Part shown: positions 4,458 to 7,517 of the stretch, one piece after another
Position numbering within the stretch: position 1 is the first letter of the stretch
How the letters are laid out: every line of letters begins with the position of its first letter
NCBI GenBank assembly: GCA_947484245.1
Contig: CANKOT010000109.1
Location: 1 to 7,517 of the forward strand
DNA length: 7,517 nt
Origin: Comamonadaceae bacterium
Lineage (GTDB): Bacteria > Pseudomonadota > Gammaproteobacteria > Burkholderiales > Burkholderiaceae
Direction of reading: 5' to 3'
Notes under the pieces: generated by a model
Databases searched by the model: none
Seen by the model: the letters and a program-made list of their open reading frames with translations, nothing else
What the model was told of the DNA's origin: nothing
Program-made: the position numbers and the translations under genes

Positions 4458-5383
4458 TGCTTTCAAAATTACCTGCATGGTCACCGCGCACCCTCATGTG
4501 GGCGTCGGTGGTGGTGGCCATCATGACCATCACCCTCAAAACTTTGGCTTGGTGGATCACAGATTCTGTGGGTTTGTTGTCAGACGCCATGGAGTCTTTG
4601 GTCAATTTGGCCAGTGCAGTTTTTGGCTTGGTCATGGTCACGGTGGCCGCGCAGCCGGCCGATGCAGAACACCCTTATGGCCATCACAAAGCAGAATATT
4701 TTTCATCTGGCTTTGAAGGCATTTTGATCATTGTGGCGGCCGTTGGCATTATCTGGGCGGCCAGCCATCGTATTTTTGACCCGCAGCCCATTGAGCAAGT
4801 GGGCTTGGGTTTGGCTTTGTCGGTCATCAGTTCTGTTTTAAATGGCGTGTTGGCTTGGGTGATGTTTGGTGCGGCCAAGACGCACCGGTCTATTGCTTTG
4901 GAGGCCGATGCCAAGCATTTGGTGACTGATGTGTGGACGTCGGTGGGGGTGGTCATAGGCATTGGCTTGGTTAGCCTAACGGGTTGGTTGTGGCTGGATG
5001 CGGTGGTGGCCATTGCGGTGGCGCTGAATATTTTGAAAGAAGGCGTGCACCTTATTTGGCGTTCGTCGCAAGGGTTGATGGACGAGGCCGTTGAGCCAGA
5101 GGCTATTACCAAAATCAATGAAACATTGGCGGGGTTTGAGTATCAGCGCGGTGAGGTGTCGATCATCCGCTTTGACCACATCACCACGCGCCAAGCGGGG
5201 CAACGTTTGTTTGTCGATTTGCACATGCACATGCCCGCTTCATGGACCTTGGGCCGCGCGGCGGCGCTTCGAACCAGTGTGGAGCAGGCCCTGATGAGTA
5301 CGGTGCCTGGTTTGCGTGCTTCCATTCAGTTGTTGCCTTCCGACGTGGAAGCCCACTTTGATTCAGAAAGAGATTTGCTGTGA
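4457..5383 (+). CDS. Cation diffusion facilitator family metal efflux transporter
   Basis: An inner-membrane antiporter of the CDF family (FieF/YiiP-like), 308 residues, expected to export divalent metals such as Zn, Fe, Cd or Mn for protons. About six membrane segments are visible (roughly 12-34, 38-63, 84-103, 114-138, 156-176 and 178-195), followed by a cytoplasmic domain (about 205-295) ending the core in a DLHMHMP strand. Likely metal residues are D43 in TM2 ([12 protein letters not shown]), H154 and D158 in TM5 (the HxxxD of AKHLVTDVW), and the HPYGHHKAE loop (72-80) typical of the family. The D45 partner seen in E. coli YiiP is a glycine here, so substrate choice cannot be read off. 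ATG at 4457 overlaps the tyrS stop (TGATG). A TTG at 4454 is the alternative start. Confidence 0.92.
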
Positions 5384-5832
5384 TTGGTGTAGCGCAACGT
5401 GTGCTTGAAGCACGAGTGGTAGTGGATGGCCAAGTGATTGGGCAAATTCAAAAGGGTTTGTTGTTGCTACTTTGTGCAGAGCAAGGTGACACAACTGCCA
5501 ATGCTGACAAGATGCTGAGCAAGCTTTTGAAGTTGCGTGTTTTCAGTGACGAAAACGGCAAGATGAACCGTTCAATTCAAGATTTGGATGGCAATGGTTT
5601 GCAGGGCGGTTTGTTGGTGGTTAGCCAATTCACCTTGGCCGCTGATGTGAGCGGTGGCAACCGCCCCAGCTTCACCCGCGCTGCGTCACCTGCAGATGGC
5701 CAACGCCTGTACGACTACTTCGTAGCCCAAGCCCGCGAAGCCCACCCCATTGTGCAAACCGGCCAGTTTGCCGCGGACATGAAAGTTCACTTGATCAACG
5801 ATGGCCCTGTGACCATTCCATTGCAAATGTAA
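5380..5832 (+). CDS. dtd: D-aminoacyl-tRNA deacylase
   Basis: Dtd hydrolyses D-amino acids (classically D-Tyr) and glycine mis-attached to tRNA, in the cytoplasm. The 150-residue protein begins [17 protein letters not shown] and carries both signature blocks: SQFTLAAD (82-89, containing the active-site Thr region) and NDGPVT (140-145, the Gly-cisPro motif that rejects L-aminoacyl substrates). DENGKMNRS (57-65) is also typical. It is about five residues longer than the E. coli protein, owing to a small insertion near LDGNGLQGG (69-77). The start is GTG at 5380, overlapping the transporter stop by four bases (GTGA), so translation is probably coupled. It shares an operon with tyrS, whose product can generate its substrate. 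Confidence 0.95.
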
Positions 5833-5848
5833 TCGTGCAAAATTTTTT

Positions 5849-5862
5849 TCTCTCCGGAGAGA
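5849..5862. repeat. 14-bp perfect palindrome after dtd
   Basis: TCTCTCCGGAGAGA is fully self-complementary and starts 17 bases after the dtd stop. A run of seven T (5843-5849) comes before it rather than after it, so on neither strand does a T-run follow the hairpin. Its role is unknown; it could be a protein-binding site or a minor RNA hairpin. Confidence 0.5.
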
Positions 5863-5872
5863 GCAAAACAAT

Positions 5873-5966
5873 TGGGGTCAGATCAACATTAATTTCCAAT
5901 CAAAGGAGATAAAGGCTAAGGGGGCTGACAAATAAATGGGGTCAGATCAACATTAATTTCCAATCA
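5873..5966 (+). repeat. Two direct copies of a 30-nt repeat block in the left arm
   Basis: The block starting TGGGGTCAGATCAACATT and ending AATCA occurs at 5873-5902 and 5937-5966, identical over 30 bases with a period of 64. Both copies carry CC at the bubble position. Confidence 0.85.
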
Positions 5967-6077
5967 GTGAGGACTGAAGCCAAGGGGGGCTGAACGATTT
6001 CTGGTACTCCAGTATGAGGAAGCCCCCCTTGGCTTCAGTCCTCACTGATTGACCAAATTAATGTTGATCTGACCCCA
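5937..6077. repeat. Inner hairpin copy nested in the long inverted repeat
   Basis: The inner tier runs from TGGGGTCAG at 5937 to CTGACCCCA at 6077 and by itself forms a complete hairpin with the 29-nt loop. It shares the first 30 bases of each arm with the outer tier. Beyond them the sequence differs (GTGAGGACTGAAGCCAAGG against AAGGAGATAAAGGCTAAGG), while keeping a G-run followed by CTGA. Removing it would leave the outer tier as a hairpin with almost no loop, as expected if this copy had inserted at the tip of an older one. Confidence 0.6.
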
Positions 6078-6143
6078 TTTATTTGTCAGCCCCCTTAGCC
6101 TTTATCCCCTTTGATTGACCAAATTAATGTTGATCTGACCCCA
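6046..6143 (-). repeat. Two direct copies of the 32-nt form of the block in the right arm
   Basis: The same block occurs inverted at 6046-6077 and 6112-6143, with a period of 66. Both copies carry GGTC (minus-strand reading) where the left-arm copies carry CC, making them two bases longer. The two right-arm copies are identical to each other. Confidence 0.85.
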
Positions 6144-6170
6144 ATTGTTTTTTCCCCAAACACACACACG

Positions 6171-6182: not shown

Positions 6183-7517
6183 ATGAACGAAAACAAAAAT
6201 GATTTTGCGAAGCTGAGTTTGTCGGCTTCGATGTTGGGCAATTTAGAGCAGTTGGGCTATTTGCAAATGACGGCTATTCAGGCGGCCAGTTTGCCTGTCA
6301 CTTTGGCGGGCAAAGATTTGATTGCGCAGGCCAGCACGGGCAGTGGTAAAACTGCTGCGTTTGGTATTCCGCTTGTAGAAAAAATTCTGCCTGCAGACTT
6401 TGCTGTGCAGGCCATGATTTTGTGCCCCACTCGCGAGTTGGCCGATCAGGTGAGTCAAGAGATTCGCCGCCTGGCGCGGGCTGTGGGCAATGTGAAGGTG
6501 GTTACTTTGTGCGGCGGCGTAGCGTTGCGCGGCCAAGTGCTGAGCTTGGAGCACGGCGCGCATGTGGTGGTGGGCACGCCGGGTCGCATCATGGATCATT
6601 TGGAGCGCGGTTCTTTGAAACTCAAGGGCCTTCAAACCTTGGTACTGGACGAAGCCGATCGCATGCTCGACATGGGTTTTTTTGACGATATTGCCACCGT
6701 GGCCAGACAGTGCCCACCAAAGCGTCAAACGCTGTTGTTCTCGGCTACTTATCCTGAAGGCATTGCCAAGTTGGCCACGCAGTTCATGAAAGATCCGCAA
6801 ACTGTGAAAGTGGAAACGCAGCACAGCGCCAACAAAATCAAACAAATATTTGTGCAGGTGAAAGAGTCCGAACGCTTGCATGCGGTGTCGATGGTGCTCA
6901 ATCATTTCCGTCCTACTTCTACTTTGGCGTTTTGCAATACCAAAGTGCAGTGTCGCGATTTGGTGGCCGTGCTTCAAGCGCAAGGCTTCAGTGCGCTGGC
7001 GCTGTATGGTGAGCTTGAACAACGCGAACGCGATCAAGTGCTGATTCAATTTGCCAATCGCAGTTGCTCTGTGTTGGTGGCCACCGATGTGGCTGCACGC
7101 GGCTTGGATGTGGCGCAACTTGAAGCTGTGATCAATGTGGATGTCACGCCAGATTCAGAAGTGCACATTCACCGCATTGGTCGCACGGGCCGCGCCGATG
7201 CAGAAGGCTTGGCAGTGAGTTTGGCCAGCATGGACGAGATGGGCTATGTGGGCAAAATTGAAGTGTTGCAAGGGCGCGAGTCTAGCTGGCAAGAGTTGAG
7301 CACTTTGACGCCTGCAGGCAAAGACATGCTGGTGCCCGCTATGGCTACCCTGCAAATTGTGGGCGGACGCAAGGAGAAAATTCGCGCGGGTGATGTGTTG
7401 GGAGCCCTAACGGGTGATGCAGGCTACACGCGCGAGCAAGTGGGCAAGATCAATGTGAATGAATACTCTACTTATGTGGCAGTGGCTCGTGACATTGCGC
7501 GTGAGGCTGCGGCTAAA
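6183..7517 (+). CDS. dbpA: ATP-dependent 23S rRNA DEAD-box helicase DbpA (3' end outside window)
   Basis: DbpA unwinds RNA around hairpin 92 of 23S rRNA during 50S assembly. The frame is open from ATG 6183 to the window end, giving 445 residues; E. coli DbpA is about 457, so roughly a dozen are missing. Helicase motifs in order: Q motif with Q33 (GYLQMTAIQ), Walker A ASTGSGKT (50-57), PTRELA (82-87), GG (111-112), TPGR (132-135), DEAD (156-159), SAT (187-189), FCNTK (250-254), ATDVAARGLD (300-309) and HRIGRTGR (330-337). The C-terminal RNA-binding domain that sets DbpA apart from other DEAD-box proteins begins near 386 (MATLQIVGGRKEKIRAGD) and includes VLGALTGDAG (405-414). A 291-codon open frame on the opposite strand (6243-7118) is a shadow of this gene. 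It stands 31 bases past the long inverted repeat. Confidence 0.95.
   Translation, partial: MNENKNDFAKLSLSASMLGNLEQLGYLQMTAIQAASLPVTLAGKDLIAQASTGSGKTAAFGIPLVEKILPADFAVQAMILCPTRELADQVSQEIRRLARAVGNVKVVTLCGGVALRGQVLSLEHGAHVVVGTPGRIMDHLERGSLKLKGLQTLVLDEADRMLDMGFFDDIATVARQCPPKRQTLLFSATYPEGIAKLATQFMKDPQTVKVETQHSANKIKQIFVQVKESERLHAVSMVLNHFRPTSTLAFCNTKVQCRDLVAVLQAQGFSALALYGELEQRERDQVLIQFANRSCSVLVATDVAARGLDVAQLEAVINVDVTPDSEVHIHRIGRTGRADAEGLAVSLASMDEMGYVGKIEVLQGRESSWQELSTLTPAGKDMLVPAMATLQIVGGRKEKIRAGDVLGALTGDAGYTREQVGKINVNEYSTYVAVARDIAREAAAK

Follow-up and report, generated by a model that had tools for sequence, protein, structure and literature searches.

A nested palindrome between dtd and dbpA probably belongs to a REPIN-like hairpin family linked to a single-copy Y1 transposase in Limnohabitans-type bacteria

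Long palindromes are usually thought to be unstable in bacteria. The REPINs of Pseudomonas, as presented in the passages used here of Bertels and Rainey 2011 (PMC3116915), have two inverted conserved ends around a variable spacer with compensatory changes, form hairpins, are extragenic, and are tied to the gene of a Y1 transposase, the RAYT. TIRtrons (TIRYTs) are described in the corresponding passages of Di Nocera et al. 2013 (PMC3733652) as a Y1 gene lying between inverted TIRs that carry the motif GGGGWSAS, accompanied by moderately abundant, dispersed TIR families with many dimers; as far as these passages go, the main text mentions neither Limnohabitans nor Polaromonas nor Comamonadaceae. 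In Quentin et al. 2018 (PMC6006769, passages), the enzymes of TnpAY1 subclass 2.1 have a median length of 238 amino acids, low copy numbers and members in betaproteobacteria; no REP-like sequences near their genes are reported there, and the link to TIRYTs is left to be confirmed, as is the question of whether mobile hairpins cognate to the TIRYT (subclass 2.1) enzymes exist, like those of the GTAG RAYTs. For the TnpAREP of Escherichia coli, an irregularity in the stem of the REP hairpin is needed for recognition (PMC8266576, passages).

The DNA analyzed here (7,517 nucleotides from a Comamonadaceae bacterium; this whole stretch is referred to as the window) contains a 287-bp palindrome between dtd and dbpA, at 5865-6151 (inverted-repeat analysis and DNA fold). 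A left arm of 127 nt (5865-5991) and a right arm of 131 nt (6021-6151) surround a loop of 29 nt (5992-6020), and the near-perfect palindrome described in an earlier note on this DNA is real: its predicted fold energy is −145.9 kcal/mol, whereas 100 dinucleotide-preserving shuffles average −33.4 and none of them folds as well (z = −26.8). Pairing is near complete, as that note had counted (122 of 127 left-arm bases), with the predicted single-strand DNA fold giving the slightly higher figure of 124 of 127. There are 128 pairs in total, 4 of them within the loop, and the three unpaired left-arm bases are 5907, which is mismatched, plus a single base from each of the two 1×3 internal loops (5896 versus 6118-6120, and 5960 versus 6052-6054). 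The architecture, as that note had not recognized, is nested, with an outer shell and an inner hairpin that both start with the 22-mer GGGGTCAGATCAACATTAATTT; the repeat end (TIR) common to both shells is AAWTGGGGTCAGATCAACATTAATTT. Each arm carries two 22-mer copies (5874 and 5938 on the plus strand, 6055 and 6121 on the minus strand), and the spacings between successive copies are 64, 117, and 66 (Table 1).

Table 1. Parts of the nested palindrome and its neighboring genes, in window positions
Feature	Position	Strand	Evidence
Entire nested palindrome with its outer W-rich ends	5865..6151		Inverted repeats; DNA fold, z −26.8
Outer left TIR: 8-nt W-rich end plus GGGGTCAGATCAACATTAATTT (22-mer 5874-5895)	5866..5895	+	22-mer in at least 117 genome stretches and in Y1 gene flanks
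Outer shell arm, contributing a single base (5896) to the conserved internal loop	5896..5937	+	Arm comparison, fold
Inner left TIR 22-mer	5938..5959	+	22-mer match
Inner arm (class I), contributing a single base (5960) to the second internal loop	5960..5991	+	Arm comparison, fold
Class I loop with its own CTGG/CCAG hairpin	5992..6020		Sequence common to most class I copies; fold
Inner arm, right side; 6052-6054 is the three-base side of the internal loop	6021..6054	-	Inverted repeats, fold
Inner right TIR 22-mer	6055..6076	-	22-mer match
Outer shell arm, right side; 6118-6120 is the three-base side of the internal loop	6077..6120	-	Inverted repeats, fold
Outer right TIR (22-mer 6121-6142) plus 8-nt W-rich end	6121..6150	-	Inverted repeats, paired-copy comparison
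dtd (D-aminoacyl-tRNA deacylase), upstream neighbor	5380..5832	+	TIGR00256, 166.4 bits
dbpA, downstream neighbor, runs off the window	6183..7517	+	NF008744, 699.5 bits

Two open reading frames (ORFs) of at least 60 amino acids enter the palindrome, which had been described as free of ORFs: one is dbpA extended to a TTG start at 6111 (long-start dbpA), the other a minus-strand ORF of 61 amino acids (5686-5871) that overlaps the first 7 bases. Because the DbpA model fits the protein read from the ATG at 6183, we nevertheless take the palindrome as non-coding, as the earlier description implied. A search of the window against Rfam gave no matches, and a promoter scan of it found none. The terminator scan found no site on the plus strand, with a loop limit of 8 that would miss this hairpin, and two sites on the minus strand, both outside the palindrome. 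A run of T follows the palindrome.

The 22-mer is dispersed in related genomes. The exact sequence occurs in at least 117 stretches of the genome collection, and the matches listed are nearly all labelled Limnohabitans, Comamonadaceae or Burkholderiales, mostly freshwater metagenome bins. All six genomes of relatives that were searched contain it; with up to 2 mismatches allowed, the counts are 60, 52, 23, 56, 56, and 37, and the reversed pattern, used as a control, gave 0 copies in the same six. The palindrome had been proposed to be a non-autonomous hairpin element with further copies elsewhere, and these 23 to 60 copies per genome are in line with that proposal, as is the mostly intergenic position of the listed paired copies. 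Viral contigs contained no exact 22-mer, and plasmids gave no blastn match to the palindrome with its flanks. We also observed the Limnohabitans-type repeat in bins labelled Cryomorphaceae and Singulisphaera (L001; L006, L038, L061, and L110), which likely reflects mis-binned contigs.

In the 117 listed loci and the window, 115 copies are paired, and 67 more TIRs are solitary. Among these paired copies, 75 are single hairpins with TIRs 114 to 119 bp apart (class I), 18 are shorter hairpins with a TIR spacing of 52 to 60 (class II), and the remainder are 15 mini-hairpins and 7 nested copies. Classes I and II are defined by TIR spacing alone; L018 falls in class II by its spacing, but its arms are class-I-like and it lacks a loop. 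Variants of the class I loop (5992-6020 in the window) read TGGGGTACC, which is similar to the TIR start; class I may perhaps be a nested element with a collapsed inner hairpin. Among the listed paired copies, 97/115 lie between two ORFs, 6 overlap an ORF (≥100 amino acids; these include the window element, via the long-start dbpA), and 12 are unresolved on one side. Within 60 bp of these copies there are 101 gene 3′ ends and 37 gene 5′ ends. The hexamer GGGGTC was found just outside the ends of 21/115 listed paired copies (9 left, 7 right, and 5 both), where it resembles a truncated further shell; its presence at so few copies led us to reject it as an insertion target.

One Y1_Tnp gene is present in each of six repeat-bearing relatives (6/6), and in all six genomes the 22-mer brackets it on both sides in inverted orientation (at most 1 mismatch), so that the Y1 (RAYT-type) gene flanked by the same block, which had been envisaged for such an element, was found in these relatives. 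Inverted TIRs bracket the gene in 12/14 clade A loci, a count in which loci L166 and L167 were not parsed. In addition, all six cassettes (L118 to L123) have a degenerate second TIR end, GATCTGTCCCC, between the Y1 gene and the right TIR, and the right end of the Y1 cassette is thus also doubled. The Y1 protein is 230 to 233 amino acids long and contains the motifs NHFH (HUH), WEGRYKS, and YIDLNP in all six genes. PF01797 is present in 40/40 Y1 proteins; Pfam detected the Y1_Tnp domain alone, and the C-terminal helices are predicted at low confidence. Against the NCBIfam model REP_Tyr_transpos, the protein scores 78.4 bits, just under the cut-off of 80. A single-sequence search of solved structures gave no match, a profile search gave 4er8 and ISDra2 entries, and the first fold match of the structure model (blocks of residues 11 to 100 averaging 83 to 95 pLDDT; overall mean, 69.1) is E. 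coli TnpAREP 4er8 (E value of 2e-8).

Sixteen of 60 genus genomes carry the repeat (at most 1 mismatch). All 14 genomes with a close Y1 (≥88% identity) are among them, and 44 of the 46 others have none; the exceptions are G008, with 32 copies and no Y1 match, and G059, with one copy and no close Y1. Since the repeat-bearing genomes form one clade, common descent explains part of this association. Most other genomes of the genus have a Y1 of about 58 to 64% identity, and 14/15 such loci carry a different TIR, GGGGTCAGATCCCAATTAA, which reaches 0 to 16 copies per genome (at most 1 mismatch, Y1 flanks counted). A third TIR type, GGGGTCAGATTCCAATTA, was found at 13 of 21 parsed Y1 loci elsewhere in the family, a count that leaves out 7 family loci not parsed, and the other 8 have no recognized TIR; overall, 9/51 parsed Y1 loci lack one. 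On the Y1 tree, TIR types A, A′, B, and C require 3 changes, the minimum (42 labelled rows); with the nine unlabelled rows as their own group (51 Y1 proteins), 12 changes are needed, versus 28.8 in shuffles. The clade A TIR folds at 0 kcal/mol alone, whereas the clade B and C TIRs do fold.

The gene downstream of the clade A Y1, which we take to encode a gltB-like protein, was matched in the Y1 locus in 12/14 cases in clade A, 16/16 in clades B and A′, and 27/28 in the family. The upstream gene of clade A was matched in 14/14, 3/16, and 20/28 loci, respectively. As the Y1 gene keeps one chromosomal neighborhood, it looks vertically inherited, and because this neighborhood is fixed, the Y1 cassette itself does not appear mobile. 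Counted over the loci L154 to L183 and L204 to L231, the gltB-like neighbor stands beside Y1 in 55/58. A Y1 match at an E value of 1e-30 or better was obtained in 138/150 family genomes, where it appears as a widely kept single gene.

The two arms of a copy resemble each other far more than they resemble the arms of other copies. Complementarity reaches 8 nt beyond GGGG, outward, and at the variable positions 2, 5, 6, 7, and 8 the two sides match in 93, 96, 87, 89, and 71% of cases within a copy, compared to 64, 69, 45, 51, and 53% between copies (matches listed). In a sliding comparison of 71 distinct class I copies among the matches listed, which have 67 different arm cores, agreement was 97% between the two arms of a copy (median, 100%) and 66% between arms taken from different copies; ignoring the 2-nt offset of the bulge gives a weaker contrast (88% versus 74%). 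In 64/71 of these copies, no arm from elsewhere gives a better match than the partner arm within the copy. The internal loop just inside the TIR is nonetheless asymmetric, CC versus GGTC, in 65/71; one of the exceptions has CC on both arms, and five are unclassified. In these listed class I copies, the bulge is carried on one side or the other in 34 versus 31 cases, and the orientation of the loop relative to the bulge is split 35 versus 30. For 24/75 listed class I copies, the nearest arm relative comes from the same genome, compared to 9.7 expected, and 0/1,000 shuffles gave a value as high. Template switching has two outcomes according to the passages used of PMC8604942, homogenization of the arms and inversion of the spacer; arm identity together with flipped loops would be as expected of this process. 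Because the asymmetry persists beside homogenized arms, we argue, by inference, that the asymmetric bulge is under selection.

Direct TIR repeats at nested spacing occur in 10/90 genus genomes and in none for the reversed control. Among the matches listed there are 11 further complete nested copies, all with a class II hairpin inside (TIR spacing of 52 to 53); the dtd-dbpA element alone has a class I interior (117), and it is the longest nest (269 bp from TIR to TIR). In another nested copy, L254 (1501 onward), one junction is the usual one and the other retains 14 nt of class I loop. Such a remnant would be left by an element that had inserted into a class I loop or recombined with one, and the copy is a possible nesting intermediate.

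The dtd loci of 30 relatives were inspected, and dtd and dbpA were locatable together in 24. The gap contains an element in 7/7 close relatives in which the genes are adjacent (Dtd, 85 to 97% identical) and lacks one in 17/24, the more distant relatives (Dtd, 65 to 74%), whose gaps are too divergent for alignment. Five of the seven interiors are class I hairpins, one is class II, and one is a mini-hairpin; the elements of L126 and L127 lie at a slightly different point of the gap, and interior size spans a 55-bp mini-hairpin to the 269-bp nest and differs in nearly every genome. In G023, a close relative, dtd and dbpA are apart, and the element is at neither. G024 gave no Dtd match. Here the cation-efflux gene and dtd are absent, tyrS is immediately next to dbpA, and the junction carries a degenerate TIR end (L234, reverse strand, just before dbpA); the sequence looks as if a deletion had ended in an element. 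Since occupancy of the gap is common to the clade, recent arrival at this site, which the earlier note had offered beside active maintenance or function, is not supported, and a recent insertion at dtd-dbpA was rejected on the strength of the seven occupied gaps with their differing interiors.

Other sites are shared as well: 61/115 listed paired copies fall into 18 groups, of which 13 mix classes, although the loci were picked for holding the 22-mer and say nothing on the frequency of empty sites. A search for empty sites reduced 713 flank-pair rows to 31 that passed the filter and 6 distinct ones without a TIR start, none of them a clean empty site; all 6 are in locus L103, and 5 represent one site with a remnant TIR end.

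The data reveal a TIR family, its link to and co-divergence with a Y1 gene, intergenic scatter, shared sites, arm identity, loops in both orientations, and nesting. We consider it probable, at roughly 0.78, that this non-autonomous element is REPIN-like in layout, is of the TIRYT kind, and is spread by a single-copy Y1 enzyme (TnpAY1 subclass 2.1) acting on the hairpin. The two inverted TIRs would form a hairpin in single-stranded DNA, which would be recognized by the Y1 enzyme, encoded elsewhere between the same TIRs and beside the gltB-like gene. Judging from the IS200/IS605 and TnpAREP relatives, the enzyme would then cut, move, and spread the element at low frequency. The pattern across copies suggests that template switching during replication keeps the arms complementary and flips the loop and that the conserved internal loop may be retained as a recognition mark, while the nested form might go back to an element that inserted into, or recombined with, a second element's loop. 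Several results weigh against this reading: no target duplication and no clean empty site were found, the clade A TIR does not fold alone whereas those of B and C do, the dtd-dbpA element has no GTAG guide, G008 carries 32 copies with no Y1 match and G059 one copy with no close Y1, 9/51 parsed Y1 loci show no recognized TIR, the co-distribution lies within one clade, and the Y1 cassette does not appear mobile.

The most serious competitor, possible though clearly less likely, is that Y1 once spread the elements and now does other work, so that present change (interior swaps, nesting, and arm identity) is due solely to host recombination and template switching between copies. It would account for sites common across species with changed interiors (13/18 listed site groups), for the nearest arm relatives in the same genome (24/75 versus 9.7 expected, matches listed), and for the fixed neighborhood of the Y1 gene; it does not sit well with the exact preservation of the TIR in many copies and its divergence in step with the Y1 gene or with a bulge that is asymmetric in 65/71 listed copies, since homogenization alone should erase that asymmetry. 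We think it unlikely that the palindrome is a fixed regulatory structure, such as a terminator of dtd transcription or a leader or insulator of dbpA. Occupancy of the gap in 7/7 close relatives with adjacent genes, the T run, and the excess of listed copies near gene 3′ ends over 5′ ends (101 versus 37 within 60 bp) would suit this role, but the same element occurs at many unrelated sites, its interior here varies from 55 to 269 bp, 17/24 relatives with both genes do without it, and the scan, with the loop limit noted above, gave no plus-strand terminator. A further, rather improbable idea is that the TIR serves as an address at which Y1 repeatedly swaps or nests hairpin interiors at occupied sites more than it inserts at new ones; if true, this would be a slow, site-specific exchange of hairpin cassettes, with the one-sided bulge as a strand mark.

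Two other explanations were rejected as having very little probability. The earlier note had offered a REP/RAYT or MITE assignment or an undescribed family; the link to a RAYT-type Y1 gene was supported in relatives, and a MITE with target duplication was not. The family is short, non-coding, and multicopy with inverted ends, as a MITE of an ordinary DDE transposon would be, but these ends flank a Y1 gene instead of a DDE gene, and no target duplication was found outside the palindromic ends: a 6-nt direct repeat at offsets 8 to 13 outside the TIR was present in 0/112 listed copies, and 4-nt direct repeats at offset 8 in 3, compared to 0.4 expected. The window may come from a metagenome record, but a chimeric inverted join in the assembly is equally hard to credit, as similar nested copies occur in megabase contigs labelled isolates (L041 and L080) and in the single-contig 2.9-Mb genome G011, and the site and its flanks match those of relatives.

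On the preferred reading of a Y1-spread hairpin family, Limnohabitans is a natural test, having a single-copy enzyme with matched repeats, sister clades with another matched repeat, and isolate genomes. Long palindromes are held here at fixed sites over the lifetime of the clade while their interiors change, which makes it possible to test what a domesticated transposase and template switching during replication each contribute. The literature searched, judged by titles, contained no description of a Limnohabitans-type repeat family; no title concerned such repeats for GGGGTCAGATC or for Limnohabitans palindromes, and a search for tyrosine transposases with REPINs in Burkholderi* gave Pseudomonas work only. 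Nested palindromes, interior changes at shared sites, and the conserved one-sided bulge appear to be new here.

Compared to E. coli TnpAREP and REP (Corneloup et al. 2021, PMC8266576, passages), the family has in common the Y1 fold (4er8) and a conserved stem irregularity, and it differs in forming one long duplex instead of a short bulged hairpin and in the absence of the GTAG motif. With the REPINs of PMC3116915 (passages), the listed paired copies share inverted conserved ends, a variable self-complementary spacer, and hairpin form at extragenic sites, and the partner Y1 gene is single copy in six genomes and, by its gltB-like neighbor, looks vertically inherited. Unlike in REPINs, the ends are not GTAG-tagged REP hairpins, and the Y1 is of another subclass; the dtd-dbpA element has neither GTAG nor CTAC, which occur elsewhere in 4/115 listed copies, and a classical GTAG REP was therefore rejected. 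The likeness to the TIRtrons of PMC3733652 is closer, comprising a Y1 gene between inverted TIRs, an end (GGGGTCAG) that satisfies GGGGWSAS, and dispersed TIR copies that are often dimers; nested palindromes, interior changes at shared sites, and TIR types that track the Y1 tree are found here and not in the passages used of that paper. The enzyme resembles TnpAY1 subclass 2.1 (PMC6006769, passages) in its length of about 230 amino acids, its low copy number, its betaproteobacterial hosts, and its motifs (NHFH, WE, and YIDLNP, compared to NH[YF]H, W[EQ], and Y..LNP in Table 1 of that paper), although the C-terminal HTH of the subclass was not detected in the Y1 proteins by Pfam. In contrast to subclass 2.1 as described in those passages, the enzyme is clearly tied to a dispersed hairpin family in Limnohabitans-type genomes.
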